Assembly: GCA_012959965.1 (NCBI GenBank)
Contig: DUCF01000017.1
Coordinates: forward strand, 1 to 35,767
Length of the DNA stretch: 35,767 nucleotides
Direction of reading: 5' to 3'
DNA from: Candidatus Thioglobus sp.
GTDB lineage: Bacteria; Pseudomonadota; Gammaproteobacteria; PS1; Pseudothioglobaceae
Shown piece after piece: positions 9,673 to 17,785 of this stretch; the first letter of the stretch is position 1, and each line of letters opens with the position of its first letter. A program made the position numbers and the translations under genes. The notes beneath the pieces were generated by a model. It was given only the letters and a program-made list of their open reading frames with translations. It was not told the DNA's origin and did no database searches.

Positions 9673-10782
9673 TCAAATCGAGTCGTTACTTGTCGCTGAT
9701 AGAGGCTGAATACGGTAAATATTGCCATTATCAGTAGAGAAATATATCCAGCCCTCAGGACTCTGAACGAGTGCTCTAATGCGCTCATTCAAATCTTCAA
9801 ATAATCGCTCTTCGGCAATCGCCACGCCATCATCATCAAGCCCTATACGATTCAAATGGCGCAGTTTCAGTGCACCGGTGAATAAATCCCCTTGCCACTC
9901 GGGAAATGCTGTGCCGCTGTAGAGCAGTAAACTGCCTGGTGCTATGGAGGGCACATAAACTTTAATCGGTTGCTCCATACCTGCTTTGTGCGTCCCTTCG
10001 CCAACACTGAACGGCAGCCAGTATTCTTTGCCATAAGAAATAACAGGCCAACCGTAGTTTTTGCCTTTAACAATTAAATTAATTTCATCGCCACCTCTTG
10101 GGCCGTGTTCAATAGACCACAAACGTTGCTCTAAGTTGTCCCAAACCAAGCCCTGTGGATTGCGATGACCATAACTCCAAATTTCATCAAGCGCCTGATT
10201 GTTGTCCACAAATGGATTATCCTCTGGAACGCTTCCATCAAGATTAAGCCTTATAATCGAGCCAGCATGTGTGCTCAAATCTTGTGCATTAGGGCGGTAA
10301 CCCCTCTCGCCAACTGAGAAATAGACAAATCCATCAGCAAAAACAATCCGACTACCAAAATGCTTGTTGTCGCCCTCTATAGAGCGAGTCACAAGAAGAT
10401 CCTGCCAATCCACCAAATGCGAATCGATTAGACGCGCTCTAGCAAGAGTAGTTTCACTGTAACTATTTACAGGTTTGGCGTAAGTAAAATAAAGCCAATC
10501 ATCAAAATTGTAATTGGGTAGTGTCGCTACATCCATTAGACCGCCTTGGCCTGCCACATGAATTTCTGGCAAACCTGTTATATACTCTACCAGTCCAGAG
10601 TTAACATTAAGGATGCCAAGTTTGCCTTGTCGCTCTGTAAAAACGATCTCATTATCAGAGGTAAACGCCATTCCCCATGGCACACCCAAGCCTGATGCAG
10701 TCTTGACAAGCTGAAAAGTGTCAGCAAGAGCACAAATGGGCCACAAAAAAAACATAATCAACAATAAGCCAGACTTCTTCAT
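9673..10782 (-). CDS. Secreted PQQ-type aldose/sorbosone dehydrogenase
   Basis: 369 residues with a signal peptide (MKKSGLLLIMFFLWPICALA). The rest is a glucose/sorbosone dehydrogenase beta-propeller like E. coli YliI (Asd): GVPWGMAFTSDNEIVFTERQ near the start, GQGGLMDVATLPNY, then YGHRNPQGLVWD and EHGPRGGDEINLI, which supply catalytic histidine and PQQ-contacting residues in the family. It would oxidise sugars in the periplasm with soluble PQQ. No PQQ synthesis genes are in the window. The stop is 14 bases before rluD, so it may be co-transcribed with rluD-pgeF. The physiological substrate is unknown. Confidence 0.87.
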   Translation of the reverse strand: MKKSGLLLIMFFLWPICALADTFQLVKTASGLGVPWGMAFTSDNEIVFTERQGKLGILNVNSGLVEYITGLPEIHVAGQGGLMDVATLPNYNFDDWLYFTYAKPVNSYSETTLARARLIDSHLVDWQDLLVTRSIEGDNKHFGSRIVFADGFVYFSVGERGYRPNAQDLSTHAGSIIRLNLDGSVPEDNPFVDNNQALDEIWSYGHRNPQGLVWDNLEQRLWSIEHGPRGGDEINLIVKGKNYGWPVISYGKEYWLPFSVGEGTHKAGMEQPIKVYVPSIAPGSLLLYSGTAFPEWQGDLFTGALKLRHLNRIGLDDDGVAIAEERLFEDLNERIRALVQSPEGWIYFSTDNGNIYRIQPLSATSNDSI

Positions 10783-10842
10783 AGACAGGGAAAGCTATTT
10801 ATTAGTATCAAAAAAAATAATGTAATTCAAATAAGATTTAAC

Positions 10843-10848
10843 TATACT
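10843..10848 (+). promoter_or_regulatory. Candidate -10 element of the monooxygenase cassette
   Basis: TATACT lies 30 bases before the ATG at 10879 in the 96-base divergent spacer. No good -35 is visible at 16-18 bases, so the promoter may need an activator or may be elsewhere. Confidence 0.35.
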
Positions 10849-10878
10849 GCAAGTCTATAGGTGTGTGGGAGTGTATGT

Positions 10879-12045
10879 ATGCGTTTTGATTTCGTGCCGT
10901 TTTTTAATCCTGGTGAGAACTTACCATGGAATCGGGTCATTAAAATGATGCGCGAACAAACACGCCTAGCCGATGCAGCAGACTTTACAACTGTCTGGCT
11001 AACGGAGCATCACTTTGCACATAACGGCTATCTAAATGCACCGCCCAATCCAATCATGATGTCATGTGACTTGGCAGCTCATTCGGACAAAATTCGCGTA
11101 GGTCAAGCACCAATTGTCTTGCCAGACTGGCACCCTCTTCGAGTTGCCGAGGATATCGCACTCCTAGACAATATGACTGAGGGTCGTGTAGATTTTGGTG
11201 TCGCCAAAGGTATCAATGAGCGCTGCACATTGCAGTTCAATATTAATGCCGATCGAAGAGATAATGAAAAAAGCTACCGCTTATTCTTAGAATCACTCGA
11301 AATTATTCTAAAAGCATGGACACAAACTGCCTTTACCCATAAAGGCGAGTTTTATCAATTCCCCGTTCCAGGTTGGAAAGAAACCAACCGCTTTCTCATG
11401 CCACTTGAAGAGGAATATCACCACGAAAATGGTGAATACAAAGCAATGTACGTCCACCCTCGCCCTTACCAAGATCCACATCCTCCAGTTTGGTTGATGT
11501 CGAATGCGCCACACACCTACAAGATGGCTGCTGAGCGAGGTTTTAATGTGATCGGCATGTCTAGCCCACCAAGCAAATTGTTAAGTTGCTGGGACGCCTA
11601 TTGTGACGCCGACGCCAAAGACGGAGTTATTCATGAGCGCGGAGACAATACCGGTATTTGTGTGGTAATTTATGTCGCCGAAACGATGGAAGAAGCCGAC
11701 AAAACGATTCGCCCAGCAATTAATGGCTATTACGAATACTTGGGCGGCTCTCGCCCAACAGGCGAATGGGGGAGGCGAGCCTACCTTGACGATGACGCCG
11801 AACCGACGAATGAAGATCTTAATGGCGAGTGGTTTGACTTTTTAATGAAATACGAACTTATTTGGGTAGGGACCGCCGACTATGTGGCTGAGAAAATTGC
11901 CAAATACCAAGAGTTAATCGGCCTAAAGCACATCATGCTTTTACAACAATTTCCGGGCATTGAATACCAAAAAATTCTGAAAAGTATGACGCTATTCTCA
12001 GAAAAAGTCATGCCAAAATTTGGCGCAGATGGCGTTAAGAAATAA
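10879..12045 (+). CDS. Luciferase-like flavin-dependent monooxygenase (LLM class)
   Basis: 388 residues of the bacterial-luciferase-like fold. Seen: MRFDFVPFFNPGE at the start, TVWLTEHHF near 41-49 (substrate/flavin region), RVGQAPIVLPDWHPLRVAEDIALLD, GRVDFGVAKG, and in the second half VHPRPYQDPHPPVWLMSN with MAAERGFNVIG. These enzymes use reduced FMN (usually from a separate reductase) and oxygen to oxygenate diverse organics; the substrate is not predictable here. I use ATG 10879 rather than the GTG 18 bases upstream because GGAG sits just before it and the protein begins at the conserved first strand. It heads a four-gene run with gaps of 14, 18 and 9 bases. No flavin reductase is encoded nearby. 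Confidence 0.88.
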   Translation: MRFDFVPFFNPGENLPWNRVIKMMREQTRLADAADFTTVWLTEHHFAHNGYLNAPPNPIMMSCDLAAHSDKIRVGQAPIVLPDWHPLRVAEDIALLDNMTEGRVDFGVAKGINERCTLQFNINADRRDNEKSYRLFLESLEIILKAWTQTAFTHKGEFYQFPVPGWKETNRFLMPLEEEYHHENGEYKAMYVHPRPYQDPHPPVWLMSNAPHTYKMAAERGFNVIGMSSPPSKLLSCWDAYCDADAKDGVIHERGDNTGICVVIYVAETMEEADKTIRPAINGYYEYLGGSRPTGEWGRRAYLDDDAEPTNEDLNGEWFDFLMKYELIWVGTADYVAEKIAKYQELIGLKHIMLLQQFPGIEYQKILKSMTLFSEKVMPKFGADGVKK

Positions 12046-12059
12046 ATGTTAGAGGCAGC

Positions 12060-12728
12060 ATGTTAGAAATCTGGGGAAGAAAAAACGGCAATCAAGTTAT
12101 CCAAGTCCTATGGACACTTGGCGAACTTAATTTGGATTATAAGCGTTATACAGTCGGCGGTAGTTTTGGCGGCTTAGATACAGACGATTATAAAACTTTA
12201 AACCCAAACTCTAAAATTCCAACCATACGCGACAATAACTTTGTTTTATGGGAGTCTCACGCCATTATTCGCTACCTTGCAAGAGAATACGGTCAAGGCA
12301 CCTTGTGGCCCAATGACCCAAAAAAAGCAGCCCTTTCAGATCAGTGGATGACTTGGTCGACCGATGGCTTGATGGGTACTTTTTTTCCAGTCTTTTGGCA
12401 GCTCGTGCGAACCGAGGAGTCTGAGAGAGATTATGAGAAAATTGCCAAAATGGCAAAGAAAAGTGCGAATATTCTCAGCATTCTAGAAGGTCACTTACTC
12501 AACAATCACTATGTTGCGGGCAACGAACTTACTTTTGGCGACATCCCTCTCGGCGTCCTACTACACAAGTACTTTATTCTAGATATCGAGCGCCCTTCTT
12601 TTCCAGGAATTGAGGCCTGGTATCAACGGTTATGCAATCGTGAAGCTTTTCAAAAAAACGCCATGGCGCCATTTGGCAGCTCACCGAGTGAATGGCTGGC
12701 TTTCGAAAAAGCCGGCGAATATGATTAA
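12060..12728 (+). CDS. Glutathione S-transferase family protein
   Basis: 222 residues with an N-terminal thioredoxin-like domain (about 1-82) and an all-helical C-terminal domain. Visible signatures: NPNSKIPTI with the cis-proline, LWESHAIIRYLAREYG (the E-S pair contacting the glutathione gamma-glutamyl group), and VAGNELTFGDIPLGVLLHKYF with the N-capping helix motif. Proteins of this subgroup normally start G-R-x-N-S-x-N-V; here the sequence is GRKNGNQV, so the usual catalytic serine is glycine (residue 10). It could be non-conjugating, or act in isomerisation, dehalogenation or glutathione removal. It lies 14 bases after the monooxygenase. Confidence 0.88.
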   Translation: MLEIWGRKNGNQVIQVLWTLGELNLDYKRYTVGGSFGGLDTDDYKTLNPNSKIPTIRDNNFVLWESHAIIRYLAREYGQGTLWPNDPKKAALSDQWMTWSTDGLMGTFFPVFWQLVRTEESERDYEKIAKMAKKSANILSILEGHLLNNHYVAGNELTFGDIPLGVLLHKYFILDIERPSFPGIEAWYQRLCNREAFQKNAMAPFGSSPSEWLAFEKAGEYD

Positions 12729-12746
12729 ACCAACAAACAATACATA

Positions 12747-13142
12747 ATGAATTTAAACACGACAAACGAAGTTAGAATTACAGCAGAATTGCTTGATGCC
12801 ATAACCCAAGCATATAACGACAACAACATCGATGCGATTATGCAATATTTTGCCGAGGACGCCATCTTTGATCATGGCGCTGGTGCTGATGTTTTTGGCA
12901 CACGCTTTAGTGGAAAGGACACCCTAAGAGAAGTCTTTAGCGGTCTTTTTAATAATGTTAAAAACGTTCACTGGGAAACGCTTGACTCTCACATTGCTGG
13001 CAATAAGGCCTATTGTGAATTCCATCGCAAAGCGGAGTTAAAGAATGGTGAAATCCAAGATTTTCACAGCATTGACGTGCTGACATTCAAAAATGGTCTA
13101 ATTACCCATAAAGACACTTATTTCAAAAATCGCACCACCTAG
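12747..13142 (+). CDS. NTF2-like / SnoaL-type protein
   Basis: 131 residues. The pattern of an N-terminal helix (ELLDAITQAYNDNNIDAIMQYFAEDAIFDHGAG), GKDTLREVFSGLF and an alternating-strand C-terminal sheet ending GLITHKDTYFKN is the cone-shaped NTF2/SnoaL fold. Members act as isomerases, cyclases, dehydratases or small-ligand binders. A buried acid/base pair is plausible from D38/H39 in the EDAIFDHG stretch and the later DFHSIDVLTF, but this is inference. No signal peptide. Its place between the GST and the hydrolase suggests a step on the same substrate. Confidence 0.75.
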   Translation: MNLNTTNEVRITAELLDAITQAYNDNNIDAIMQYFAEDAIFDHGAGADVFGTRFSGKDTLREVFSGLFNNVKNVHWETLDSHIAGNKAYCEFHRKAELKNGEIQDFHSIDVLTFKNGLITHKDTYFKNRTT

Positions 13143-13151
13143 CAACACCCT

Positions 13152-14006
13152 ATGAATGCAACCCCTCTCATTGATCCAGAGCTAGAAAAAGGCTACAACA
13201 TTCGCCTTCTTCATAATGATTTTGAAGGCTTGATTGCCTCATGGGAGGCGCGCAGTAAATCTTTCAGGGAAAGTGTCGACTGCAGCCTCGACCTGCCATA
13301 TGGCGATGGAGAGAAAGATAAATTGGATATCTTTCGCTGTGGTCGTTTAAACGCCCCATTATTTGTTTTCGTTCATGGCGGCTATTGGCAACGCGGGGAC
13401 AAATCTATCTACAGTTATGTTGCGGAGTCTTTTGTGAATGCCGGTATTGACGCTGCATTGATTGGCTACCAACTTTGCCCGGAAGCCAGCATGACAAATA
13501 TTGTCGACAACATTCGCCAAGCTCTTATTTGGCTTTGGCACAACGCCAAATCTCAAGCTATTTCTCAAAATAGGATCAATTTTTCCGGGCACTCTGCTGG
13601 TGGACATATTACAGCAATGTTGCTGGCGACAGATTGGCAAGCATTTGATTATTCATTGCCAACCGACATCATTAAAGCGGCCATACCATTAAGCGGTCTT
13701 TATCAGCTAGACCCAATAAGGAAAACCACTATTGGTGAGGCGCTGCGCTTAGATGACAAAGAAAGTCATGCTCTTAGCCCTCAGTTTCTTAGGCCGCATA
13801 CAAACACACCTATCTTGGTGGCTCTGGGTGGTGGCGAGACCGACGCGTTTCACTGGCAAACAAATGAGTTTGTTAAAGAATGGCAACACTATCAACCTCA
13901 AATTGAATACTTTGCAGAACCAGATGCCGACCACATGGGACTTGTTGAAAGATTGGCCAATTCAGATTCTGAAATTTTTAAGAAAATTCACTCCTTTTTG
14001 CGTTAA
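13152..14006 (+). CDS. Alpha/beta hydrolase, arylformamidase/esterase-like
   Basis: 284 residues of the HSL/arylformamidase group. The oxyanion motif HGGYW is at 75-79, the nucleophile elbow GHSAGG at 146-151 (S148), and the acid/base end is DADHMGLVERL near 263-273 with the probable catalytic histidine. It is most like kynurenine-formamidase-type or carboxylesterase enzymes that cleave small ester or formamide bonds. No signal peptide. As last gene of the monooxygenase cassette, it could hydrolyse an ester or formyl product made by the luciferase-like enzyme. Its stop is one base from the stop of the convergent gene at 14008. Confidence 0.86.
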   Translation: MNATPLIDPELEKGYNIRLLHNDFEGLIASWEARSKSFRESVDCSLDLPYGDGEKDKLDIFRCGRLNAPLFVFVHGGYWQRGDKSIYSYVAESFVNAGIDAALIGYQLCPEASMTNIVDNIRQALIWLWHNAKSQAISQNRINFSGHSAGGHITAMLLATDWQAFDYSLPTDIIKAAIPLSGLYQLDPIRKTTIGEALRLDDKESHALSPQFLRPHTNTPILVALGGGETDAFHWQTNEFVKEWQHYQPQIEYFAEPDADHMGLVERLANSDSEIFKKIHSFLR

Positions 14007-14007
14007 T

Positions 14008-14619
14008 TTATACTTTATTACAAAGCAAATACATAACACCATCAGCCCAGCCATCGACTTCAACCCACATTTCAGCCGATACCCCAATAGAGGAATTTAT
14101 AGCAATCGGTTTTGAATTCTTATGCTCTTTAAAAGAAACATAAAGGGGTAGCATTGGCGGCTCCCCCTCATCAACAAATAAATGAAAATAAGGTATTTTC
14201 CCAACCATATAACCCTCTTTTGTTAACTTGAGATTTGCCTCTTTAGTCAAATAACTTGAATTGGATAAACCTCTTGTTCTCCACCGATGATTGAGGAACT
14301 TAACCAAGCCGTCTTGTATTAAAAGGTCGCCGTTAACTAGCGCCCAATCCTCAATTACACCAGTTTCGTAAATTGCACGATAAATCCCAAACCCACACCT
14401 CATTTGCCCATGTGTGTCATTAATATCATATAGGCTGAAATCAAAATCAGTTTTGCTAAATGCATCAGTAGCATTTTCTAGCACCAGATCAACCTCGTAA
14501 ATTCTGATAGAGTCCTCTTTTACAAGGGTGCCTTTAGTCTGATCAGATGGTAATGACGCTGTCACACTTGTTGATATTAGACTTATAAAACACAAACAAT
14601 ATAAAAAAGCTTTTATCAT
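14008..14619 (-). CDS. Secreted protein of unknown function
   Basis: I do not recognise a family. The 203-residue product starts MIKAFLYCLCFISLISTSVTA, a good signal peptide, and the mature part is mixed alpha/beta in composition with scattered aromatics (MRCGFGIYRAIYETG, YFHLFVDEGEPPMLPLYVSF, VEVDGWADGVMYLLCNKV) and two cysteines that could form a disulfide. A TTG seven codons upstream is an alternative start; I prefer ATG 14619 because it begins directly with the basic-hydrophobic signal. It follows the DUF1501 gene by about 30 bases on the same strand, so a role in the DUF1800/DUF1501 system is suggested by position only. Confidence 0.6.
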   Translation of the reverse strand: MIKAFLYCLCFISLISTSVTASLPSDQTKGTLVKEDSIRIYEVDLVLENATDAFSKTDFDFSLYDINDTHGQMRCGFGIYRAIYETGVIEDWALVNGDLLIQDGLVKFLNHRWRTRGLSNSSYLTKEANLKLTKEGYMVGKIPYFHLFVDEGEPPMLPLYVSFKEHKNSKPIAINSSIGVSAEMWVEVDGWADGVMYLLCNKV

Positions 14620-14649
14620 GGGTTTATTGGATGCTTGCAAGATTAAAGA

Positions 14650-15801
14650 TTATGAAAAAATATAATCATAAGTACGCTTTAGTTTTGATGTTAAAAAAAC
14701 CTTCTGTGAAATCAAATCATGATCAAGCCCCAAAACCCTTTCTATACACGCGGCACAGACTGAGCGATAATCAATTGTTGCATACAAATCCCTTTCTTCG
14801 TACAAATCAGCATCAGCAAGACCGGGCCACTCAGAAATAACTCGACTGTTATCAATTAAACCTCCGGCTAGCAAACCCACGCTTGCATAGCCATGATCGG
14901 TTCCCCCCGTACCATTCACTGACGCAGTTCTGCCAAACTCCGTTAGCGTTAAAATGATGCTCTGATCCCAAGCATCGCCAAGCCCTTCTCTATAAGCCTT
15001 GATAACCTCATCAAGTAATTCAAGACGATCACCATGACTTCCCTCATCTGCACCCTGCAAGGCATGTGTATCAAATTGGTTTACTCGAATTACAGAGGCT
15101 ACGGGGCCACCTTTTGTAGACATTTGCTCACCAGCATATTTGGCCAAACTGACAGGATCTCTCGGAATATTAGACCTTGCTTGATCGGCAACTTTATCAC
15201 CGACTGCCTGAAAGGCTTTTGCCTCCTCCGCTTGATGCGCCATAGTAATTTGCTCTATTAGCCATTTTTCCGGCTTACTTGAACCGTTAACTCTAGCCGG
15301 GTAAAAATTATCAACATTCAAACTACCTCTCAGAATTAGCGGCAACTCAAGAGACAGAGCTCGACCTGGTAACAACGCCAAATCTAGGGCGCGCCCCAGC
15401 CAGCCAGTGGTTGTCGAAAATGGACTCGAACCTCCCCCTTGCATATAATTTTGCCCTTCAAAGTGGGACCTTTTTGTGTAAGGGAAAGAGGTTGCATGAA
15501 CAATCGAAGCCTCCCCTCTTGCCATAAGTTTAGAAAAATGTTGCAATTTTGGATGCAATCCAAAAAATGGATTAACTTTAATTGGATTAGATAAGCCAAT
15601 TTCCTGGCGTAAAGAGGCTAACGCAGGGTCTCCAATTGGAGGAACAGCAGTTAGGCCATCCATACCTCCTTGCAATAAAATGACTGAGATATTCCCTTGA
15701 GGAAGATCTTTGGTAAAACCAGACACTGGAGCAGCAGATAGGAATAACGATGCTCCTGTGAGCTTAAGAAATTCTCGTCTAGTCATTTCTAATTTAGCCA
15801 C
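14650..15801 (-). CDS. DUF1501 family Tat-exported protein
   Basis: 383 residues. The N-terminus MAKLEMTRREFLKLTGASL carries a twin-arginine signal (TRREFLK), so the protein is probably exported folded. The remainder matches DUF1501, an alkaline-phosphatase-like fold: ISVILLQGGMDGLTAVPP, HATSFPYTKRSHFEGQNYMQ, DTHALQGADEGSHGDRLELLDE, TLTEFGRTASVNGTGGTDHG and LLAGGLI. Function in the literature is not settled. It starts at GTG 15801 overlapping the DUF1800 stop by 8 bases; ATG 15786 is an alternative. The DUF1800-DUF1501 pairing is common and suggests a joint envelope process. Confidence 0.86.
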   Translation of the reverse strand: MAKLEMTRREFLKLTGASLFLSAAPVSGFTKDLPQGNISVILLQGGMDGLTAVPPIGDPALASLRQEIGLSNPIKVNPFFGLHPKLQHFSKLMARGEASIVHATSFPYTKRSHFEGQNYMQGGGSSPFSTTTGWLGRALDLALLPGRALSLELPLILRGSLNVDNFYPARVNGSSKPEKWLIEQITMAHQAEEAKAFQAVGDKVADQARSNIPRDPVSLAKYAGEQMSTKGGPVASVIRVNQFDTHALQGADEGSHGDRLELLDEVIKAYREGLGDAWDQSIILTLTEFGRTASVNGTGGTDHGYASVGLLAGGLIDNSRVISEWPGLADADLYEERDLYATIDYRSVCAACIERVLGLDHDLISQKVFLTSKLKRTYDYIFS

Positions 15802-17248
15802 CCTGTACCCCCATCAATTCAGGACTGCACATAAGTGCAATAAACTTTCTTTTGCGACCACTAAGCCCTTCAACTAAATTTCGTGTGGCTGAATTCACCC
15901 CAATTCTATCCATCATTTCCTTAGGGGTGAATTGCGGATGGGCAGTATTATAAATAGCCTCAGAAAAGCGTAAACGACGCTCCAAAAACTCCCCTGAAAT
16001 CCAATATGACTTACTACTCGAATAACCATTAGGCTGTCTTTTTGCCCAAAATGGCTGGCCAAGCTCTTGAAACACTTTTTTTGCAGACATACGCCTATCA
16101 TTTAGGTCTTTATGTATATCACCCCATCCAAGAAAATAAGTAGAATCACTTATTCGCAACACTTGGAAAAGCCAAATCGCTGGCCATTGAAATTTTGGCG
16201 CTTTTGAGGCAATTGCCCGCTCTATAACCGCTTGGTGAATCTTGCGTAAATCACCACCACTTTGTTGCCAGATTTTCATTATGTATTCAATGTCAACACT
16301 CTGCACATCATCGCTAACAAAGTGCTGGCAAAGTTTACGAGCCAAATGTCGCTGAGTGTGTTCGTGAGATGCAAGATGTTCTGTTAAATTATGTAGGCCA
16401 TCTTTTCCAGCGTAAATAGCCTTTCCCAGCACAAGCTTTGTCCCCGGCTCTGCCCTATTAGACACAAACGCATCCCAATGATTAAACAGGCCAAACTTTT
16501 CCAATTGCGGTTTATCGACAATCGTACCCCATCCCGCCAATACTTGAGCAGTCGCTCTAATGTCCGACTCTGTGTAATTCGCTGCTGGAGAAACAGTGTG
16601 TAACTCTAACAGCTCTCGACCCAAATTATCATTAAGACCAACTTTGCATTTGTTATTTTTACGGCATTGAATTGCTCTTTCAGAGTTTTCACCGACACTG
16701 TAAATATTGTCCAAGTAGGTCAACATTGCCGGGTGCGTTGTAACCTTGTAGAGCATATTGGAAAAAGAGCCATTTAAGTTATCCAATATTGCAGCATCCA
16801 TAAAATGCCCAATCAAACCTCTGGTTGTTCCCGAAATGCCAACAGTAAAATGATTACTCCAAAAAAGACTAAAACGCTGCTTCACTTGGTCTTCTGCGTA
16901 CACATTACGATGGGCAAATCGCAATTCATCCAAAAATCTTATGTTGTTTTTTTTCTCATTTATCCACAACAAGCGATCCATTTCAATCTTTGAAAGTGTT
17001 TTATCTTTTTGAATCCTATCTTCATACAATCGAAGTTGGCGTAGCATTTCAGCACGCTCACTCAGGCTAGGAAGGTAGTCTTCAGGCCAATGCTCAATTT
17101 GGTGACTGTTTGATATTGATTTAATCCCAATTGATTTGGACTCAGTGCTTAACTGACCCATTGCCCAGTCTTTAATATCTCGAGGAATGTCATCTTCGGG
17201 TCGAAATAATAGGCCAATTTTTTGTGCTACTCGAAATGATTCAGTCAT
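15794..17248 (-). CDS. DUF1800 family protein
   Basis: 484 residues. Typical DUF1800 landmarks: RFSLFWSNHFTVG, LTYLDNIYSVGEN, NLGRELLELHTVS followed by YTESDIRATAQVLAGWG, then LARKLCQHFVSDD and the C-terminal RISDSTYFLGWGDIH / GQPFWAKRQPNGYS region. No convincing signal peptide is visible at the chosen start. I use ATG 17248, preceded by AGG at a good distance, rather than a TTG eight codons upstream. Biochemical role unknown; DUF1800 proteins nearly always travel with a DUF1501 partner, as here (8-base overlap). It is the first gene of the trio, 127 bases downstream of the tRNA cluster on the same strand. Confidence 0.86.
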   Translation of the reverse strand: MTESFRVAQKIGLLFRPEDDIPRDIKDWAMGQLSTESKSIGIKSISNSHQIEHWPEDYLPSLSERAEMLRQLRLYEDRIQKDKTLSKIEMDRLLWINEKKNNIRFLDELRFAHRNVYAEDQVKQRFSLFWSNHFTVGISGTTRGLIGHFMDAAILDNLNGSFSNMLYKVTTHPAMLTYLDNIYSVGENSERAIQCRKNNKCKVGLNDNLGRELLELHTVSPAANYTESDIRATAQVLAGWGTIVDKPQLEKFGLFNHWDAFVSNRAEPGTKLVLGKAIYAGKDGLHNLTEHLASHEHTQRHLARKLCQHFVSDDVQSVDIEYIMKIWQQSGGDLRKIHQAVIERAIASKAPKFQWPAIWLFQVLRISDSTYFLGWGDIHKDLNDRRMSAKKVFQELGQPFWAKRQPNGYSSSKSYWISGEFLERRLRFSEAIYNTAHPQFTPKEMMDRIGVNSATRNLVEGLSGRKRKFIALMCSPELMGVQGG

Positions 17249-17374
17249 ACAACCTATATTGAGTAAATACAATTACAGAGTCAATATATCACGAAGTGGG
17301 GCTGTTGATTACAAAGATGACATCAATTAATCAATCAAAATCTAGTTAGAAATTTGTAGAATTTATGGAGAATT

Positions 17375-17451
17375 TGGCGTCCCGTAGGAGATTCGAACTA
17401 CCTGTTTTCAGGATGAAATCCTGATGTCCTGGGCCGCTAGACGAACGGGAC
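17375..17451 (-). tRNA. tRNA-Glu (UUC) with an extra base in the T stem
   Basis: 77 bases including encoded CCA. Acceptor GTCCCGT/ACGGGAC pairs perfectly, the D arm GTCTAGCGGCCCAGGAC is E. coli-like, and the anticodon arm TCAGG-ATTTCAT-CCTGA gives UUC. The T arm reads AGGTAG-TTCGAAT-CTCCT: AGGAG/CTCCT would pair perfectly only if one T is bulged. So it may be a weakened or non-functional copy, or carry a sequencing insertion. It is the last of three tRNAs. Confidence 0.85.
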
Positions 17452-17514
17452 AAAAAGCGTGTCTTTAATTAGCACCAAGGCTTGCAATTTACAAGCAAAC
17501 CTCAGCACTGAATA

Positions 17515-17589
17515 TGGCATCCGGTAGGGGAATCGAACCCCTCTTGCCAGGATGAAAACCTGGAGTCCTAACCGATAGACGAACCGGAC
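17515..17589 (-). tRNA. tRNA-Glu (UUC)
   Basis: 75 bases including CCA. D arm GTCTATCGGTTAGGAC, anticodon arm CCAGG-TTTTCAT-CCTGG, T arm AGGGG-TTCGATT-CCCCT all pair perfectly. The acceptor GTCCGGT/ACCGGAT pairs at positions 2-7, but the first pair is G1-U72 instead of the usual G1-C72. Probably the functional glutamate tRNA. A GCTTG/CAAGC inverted repeat lies in the spacer to the next tRNA. Confidence 0.93.
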
Positions 17590-17605
17590 ATAACTTTTTT
17601 TTTGC

Positions 17606-17681
17606 TGGTGGAGCTAGACGGGATCGAACCGTCGACCTCTACACTGCCAGTGTAGCGCTCTCCCAGCTGAGCTATAGCCCC
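17606..17681 (-). tRNA. tRNA-Ala (GGC)
   Basis: 76 bases including CCA. Acceptor GGGGCTA/TAGCTCC shows the G3-U70 pair that is the main alanine identity element. The anticodon arm CTACA-CTGGCAG-TGTAG gives GGC, and the T arm GACGG/CCGTC pairs perfectly. First of the tRNA cluster after the promoter. Confidence 0.97.
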
Positions 17682-17710
17682 AAAATCTGGGTTAATCAGC
17701 AAAAACGTAA

Positions 17711-17738
17711 ATTATAGTCTGTATCTTAATTCAGTCAA
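17711..17738 (-). promoter_or_regulatory. Sigma-70 promoter of the tRNA cluster
   Basis: On the minus strand TTGACT (17738-17733), 16 bases, then a perfect TATAAT (17716-17711), about 30 bases before the 5' end of tRNA-Ala. It lies back to back with the start of the MBL-fold gene. Confidence 0.72.
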
Positions 17739-17785
17739 GTCAAAATTGGTAAAATATTTACTATTATTTGACCGGTATAAGAATC

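Follow-up and report, generated by a model that had tools for sequence, protein, structure and literature searches.

A conserved four-gene monooxygenase, GST, SnoaL and hydrolase module in Candidatus Thioglobus with a tentative link to trigonelline-type catabolism

The closest described system is the trigonelline operon of Acinetobacter (tgnA, tgnB, tgnC). The flavin-dependent opening of N-methylpyridines, in work ascribed to Perchat in 2018, reportedly leads to formamides, and a homarine operon is said to have been reported recently in marine bacteria. TgnA/B open the trigonelline ring (PMC8269262). Activity of these enzymes on homarine is considered unlikely; this isomer of trigonelline is abundant in the sea, and as of 2021 no degradation pathway for it had been characterised (PMC8269262). 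The trigonelline operon and the cassette described here have the types of the luciferase-like monooxygenase (LLM) oxygenase and the hydrolase in common, and a Tgn-type operon occurs in the cassette's own genome and, in one relative, adjoins the cassette. In contrast, the cassette contains neither a reductase nor an aldehyde dehydrogenase, and the annotated tgn operons examined have no GST or SnoaL gene. Each of the four protein types is already known; in the literature searched, no described pathway with this four-gene set was found, as the preliminary description of the locus had supposed.

The window, a stretch of 35,767 nucleotides of Candidatus Thioglobus sp., belongs to the genome G000 of the Ca. 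Thioglobus/SUP05 genus (1.79 Mb draft, 99.7% complete). The cassette spans positions 10879-14006 with four open reading frames on the plus strand, separated by gaps of 14, 18 and 9 bp:

10783..10878, no strand assigned: divergent intergenic region between a PQQ-type dehydrogenase gene (minus) and the cassette (plus), sole candidate 5' control region
10879..12045, plus strand: luciferase-like (LLM, FMN-type) monooxygenase oxygenase component, 388 aa (Pfam Bac_luciferase)
12060..12728, plus strand: GST-fold protein, theta-like, 222 aa, Gly10 for catalytic Ser, ES glutathione motif present (PDB 6nv6, alignments)
12747..13142, plus strand: SnoaL/NTF2/KSI-fold protein, 131 aa, D42, H43, D110 and D123 invariant (Pfam SnoaL_2, AF2)
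13152..14006, plus strand: kynurenine-formamidase-like alpha/beta hydrolase, 284 aa, HGGYW, GHSAGGH, DHM/DHF (Pfam, PDB, alignment)

Gene coordinates and gaps as well as the four family names (Pfam Bac_luciferase, GST_N_2/GST_C, SnoaL_2 and BD-FAE/Abhydrolase_3) agree with the preliminary description. Its statement that transporter, regulator and flavin reductase are missing holds for the run in the window but not for all relatives: a flavin reductase operon adjoins the cassette in L010/L062, a divergent HTH-cupin gene lies beside it in L026/L068 and an ABC transporter set is located downstream in L070.

As start of the monooxygenase we assigned ATG 10879, which is the aligned start in nearly all relatives and is preceded by GGGAG; an alternative in-frame GTG is found at 10861. 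A promoter scan of 10783..10878 gave no convincing match, with promoter scores at shuffle background, and the terminator scan yielded nothing usable, the terminator-like sites falling inside genes. The upstream PQQ-type dehydrogenase was dropped as a part of the cassette because G029 (L102) has it at this position but lacks the cassette, and the downstream DUF1501/DUF1800 genes were rejected as they are not kept in L005-L011. Beside this DUF1501/DUF1800 pair, a 210 aa protein with zero Pfam matches is encoded on the minus strand at 14008-14640.

The monooxygenase is a member of the Pfam family Bac_luciferase PF00296 (5e-42; 144.8 bits compared to a gathering score of 27.9). Its EHH motif and the FMN-site residues are invariant among 12 aligned homologues, and a dN/dS of 0.03 was obtained. 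The AF2 model, with a middling pLDDT of 71, exhibits the LLM barrel; the best matches in the PDB (Z 30 to 7bip, 2i7g and luciferase) are tied and thus indicate the fold only. Diketocamphane monooxygenase (4uwm/5aec) matches with Z 27.6-27.8, close to luciferase and others. Similar to the bacterial luciferase, MupA-Atu3671 and MsnO8 families, the protein shows this fold and the N-terminal FMN-site motifs; it differs from them in staying below all NCBIfam cut-offs, with matches mostly within the N-terminal 160 residues. The similarity to TgnB (28% over 163 aa) falls short of full-length orthology, and another LLM of the same genus reaches 66% over 345 aa. Genes for a TgnA reductase or a TgnC dehydrogenase adjoining the cassette LLM are absent in the window; in one relative, G023, they lie directly upstream as a joined tgn operon.

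For the second protein, the Pfam domains GST_N_2/GST_C and a match to PDB 6nv6 (1e-55) confirm the GST type. Full-length similarity and the ES motif are shared with this theta-like bacterial GST. In contrast, Gly10 occupies the position of the catalytic Ser of the solved relatives 6nv6, 4kh7, 4kdu and 4iel, which bears out the missing serine noted in the preliminary description. Thioglobus copies carry Gly or Ala at this site (Ala in most other copies), while Ser is kept in the alphaproteobacterial copies; dN/dS amounts to 0.05-0.07. Judged from these residues, the protein could plausibly bind glutathione without the usual thiolate activation. The third protein matches Pfam SnoaL_2 (4e-16), and its AF2 model (pLDDT 85) resembles limonene-1,2-epoxide hydrolase and ketosteroid isomerase (Foldseek ~1e-8), without a hint on the substrate. 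At ~20% identity to these enzymes no family can be assigned; the invariant D42 and D110 are plausibly placed relative to their catalytic residues, in weak alignments.

The hydrolase matches Pfam BD-FAE (1e-17)/Abhydrolase_3 and, nearly over its full length, the bacterial esterases 9n8r (2e-36) and 2pbl (1e-30) as well as kynurenine formamidase 4e11 (2e-20). The HGGYW oxyanion motif, the GHSAG nucleophile within GHSAGGH and a C-terminal His in DHF/DHM are common to all of them and agree with the kynurenine formamidase motifs. It differs in reaching no NCBIfam cut-off, and the run contains no kynurenine-pathway or other tryptophan catabolism genes. As none of the four proteins reached an NCBIfam model at its cut-off, curated models assign no specific function to the cassette. 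Structure prediction, proposed earlier as a check, provided the LLM barrel and the KSI/LEH fold but, with the LLM matches tied, no pointer to a substrate.

The LLM is present in 12 of the 29 genomes of the Thioglobus genus. LLM, GST and hydrolase are contiguous in all 11 fully readable Thioglobus loci; eight of these have an intact SnoaL, L005 and L006 have none, and in L010 the gene carries a frameshift. Of 15 loci overall, four are without a recognisable intact SnoaL, the gene being missing, broken or not found. The frameshifted gene of L010 (7861-8261) belongs to the tgn-joined cassette and reflects either true decay or an assembly error. A search of a 369-genome sample of the host's class matched only G000 itself. 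In G532, a genome of the same phylum and another class, all four genes form one run (LLM 62-63%, GST 46%, hydrolase 42%, SnoaL 54%), with the order of SnoaL and hydrolase reversed compared to the window and a divergent HTH-cupin gene alongside. The same run was found in G1106, G877 and G1093, with no SnoaL match in the G877 stretch; by resemblance, these four genomes are probably Rhodobacteraceae-like. G1386, with a 40% LLM and none of the other three genes nearby, lies at the edge of the module. Pairwise dN/dS values of 0.03-0.11 for all four genes, at high dS, show purifying selection. The four genes are a genuine conserved enzyme module. They stay together in related and unrelated genomes of two Pseudomonadota classes, so that the cassette passed the neighbourhood check suggested for it, and this joint conservation supports the earlier view of a co-inherited small-molecule module.

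In most Thioglobus genomes with the cassette, it lies between rluD and a metallo-beta-lactamase gene. TPR-sulfotransferase genes occupy that site in the complete genome G007. G029 lacks the cassette there and has rluD, the PQQ-type gene and the metallo-beta-lactamase gene side by side. Since the site is empty or differently filled in relatives, the cassette counts as accessory and its site as variable. In relatives, genes for TPR-sulfotransferases, glycosyltransferases or APS kinases are often found there (window 9673-17785; also L006, L008, L057, L098 and L104).

In G023 (L010/L062) the cassette is not found at the rluD site. Here it follows 57 bp downstream of a five-gene operon on the same strand, with the order abH (alpha/beta hydrolase)-FR (flavin reductase)-LLM2-ALDH-CMD, and sits between CMD and an EamA-type gene, which adjoin directly in relatives. 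LLM2 shows 66% over 345 aa to annotated TgnB; comparison with the Acinetobacter tgn cluster gave 55% for ALDH to TgnC, 37% for FR to TgnA, 35% for abH and 46% for CMD. Judged by its LLM, the Tgn-type operon occurs in 25 of 29 genomes of the Thioglobus genus, G000 included; two genomes from another genus also have it. The two copies considered here, recognised by similarity to tgn genes, are:

L054 5266-9985, strand not given: Tgn-type operon of the host genome (G000:C26)
L010 1207-5944, strand not given: Tgn-type operon joined to the cassette

The join was observed in one of the 12 Thioglobus carriers, the one with the frameshifted SnoaL. As tgn is nearly universal in the genus, co-occurrence within the genus is uninformative. 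The reductase of the operon in G000:C26 is the only match in G000 in a search that covered the PF01613 family, a flavin reductase family distinct from the SsuE and Fre types, and is therefore a likely FMNH2 source for the cassette LLM. No flavin reductase for the cassette had been seen in the preliminary description; that picture changes, since the PF01613 reductase of the genome sits in the trigonelline operon, which is cassette-joined in a relative.

Outside the genus, all four alphaproteobacterial carriers, in three genera, and the more distant G1386 contain a TgnB-type LLM, and the loci read in three genera revealed TgnC-like, TgnA-like and amino-acid-synthesis-type partners. In G532 it belongs to a genuine tgn operon (70% to both TgnB and TgnC), and in G877 and G1093 to a paralogue that combines TgnC-like, TgnA-like and hydrolase genes. 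At a base rate of 56 in 248 genomes of that alphaproteobacterial family, three of three genera would arise by chance with a probability of ~0.01; calculated after the fact on few cases, this co-occurrence is only suggestive. Paralogous Tgn-like operons (38-42% to TgnB) were observed at L113 7144-13712, L114 2763-12813 and L115 6687-10541, comprising TgnC-like, amino-acid-synthesis-family and TgnA-like reductase genes, some together with CoA-transferase or BKACE genes. A connection of SUP05 to trigonelline was not found among the matches listed in the literature search. Taken together, a link to trigonelline-type catabolism is supported by the single operon join, the reductase count and the small test of co-occurrence.

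The cassette probably breaks down a small algal metabolite. With a probability of roughly 0.38 we regard it as an accessory catabolic module, an oxidative side route that shares its reductase with tgn and serves an N-heterocyclic or betaine metabolite resembling trigonelline. Substrate, reductase sharing and the order and nature of each reaction are what we infer as follows. In this reading the LLM is the oxygenase of a two-component flavin monooxygenase; it has no reductase of its own and most likely draws its FMNH2 from the TgnA-like enzyme encoded by the trigonelline operon in G000:C26. Its substrate is probably a small phytoplankton N-heterocycle or N-methyl-betaine, either an analogue of trigonelline (e.g. 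homarine) or a compound formed by the Tgn pathway, which oxygenation would open or activate. The GST-fold protein could bind glutathione and, although it lacks the usual Ser, help in an isomerisation or a C-S step; the KSI-fold protein may dehydrate or shift a double bond, and cleavage of a formamide, ester or lactone bond would fall to the formamidase-like hydrolase. The resemblance of the hydrolase to kynurenine formamidase, together with the formamides said to result from N-methylpyridine opening, counts for this trigonelline-type reading. Homarine, with no characterised pathway and TgnA/B unlikely to act on it, is an attractive candidate substrate. It is rather doubtful that the cassette represents in particular an undescribed aerobic opening of N-methylpyridinium betaines (e.g. 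homarine) other than trigonelline in SUP05 and roseobacter-type marine bacteria, by a stand-alone LLM fed from the trigonelline reductase, a Ser-less GST that binds glutathione, an isomerase of KSI fold and a formamidase. The sequence of oxygenation, glutathione adduct, isomerisation and hydrolysis considered earlier cannot be read from the gene order, because this order varies, SnoaL is lacking, broken or undetected in 4 of 15 loci and the Thioglobus GST lacks the transferase Ser.

The limited similarity to TgnB and the join in a single genome count against the trigonelline reading, and it is quite possible that the cassette is a catabolic module unrelated to trigonelline which landed by chance beside the operon in G023. 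The LLM might then be a type II Baeyer-Villiger-like or a C-S/C-N cleaving enzyme acting on a cyclic ketone, terpene, sulfonate or carnitine-type betaine, with the hydrolase opening a lactone or ester. In agreement with this, 3,6-diketocamphane, alkanesulfonate and sulfone monooxygenases are found near the LLM model at similar Z, and 3-hydroxyacid-dehydrogenase-like genes upstream in L069/L070 and the ABC transporter in L070 suggest other substrates. Further in its favour, on a Roseovarius pelagicus plasmid (L025 9693-15855) homologues of SnoaL (59%) and the hydrolase (55%) lie among CMD, BKACE, PaaI thioesterase and Rieske genes; LLM and GST are absent from this stretch, the SMO search gave no homologue on the plasmid among the matches listed, and this context likewise counts against the trigonelline reading. 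However, the Tgn-type operons in the checked alphaproteobacterial carriers and the same-strand join in G023 would then be a coincidence.

A detoxification or stress module, an optional island set in which LLM and GST modify a reactive electrophile or inhibitor, e.g. from phytoplankton, and SnoaL and hydrolase finish the conversion, appears unlikely. The accessory spread over 12 of 29 genomes, the variable site with TPR-sulfotransferases or nothing in relatives and the GST among the four genes would fit such a role, but the Thioglobus GST is devoid of the catalytic Ser, no efflux pump is attached and the ABC transporter set after the G1093 copy, recognised by sequence resemblance, is of uptake type. 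Finally, each family is common and versatile, as would be expected for a chance run of four unrelated genes. Since the cassette is conserved across classes, we reject this explanation as extremely improbable; the same set in two classes in different order, the tight gaps and the purifying selection all stand against it.

Work on SUP05/Thioglobus bacteria has mostly dealt with sulfur oxidation and carbon fixation. The join of cassette and tgn operon is the first concrete clue to the role of the cassette. The link of this conserved accessory module, in one genome, to a trigonelline operon present nearly throughout the genus suggests that SUP05 bacteria also consume N-heterocycles or betaines of phytoplankton.
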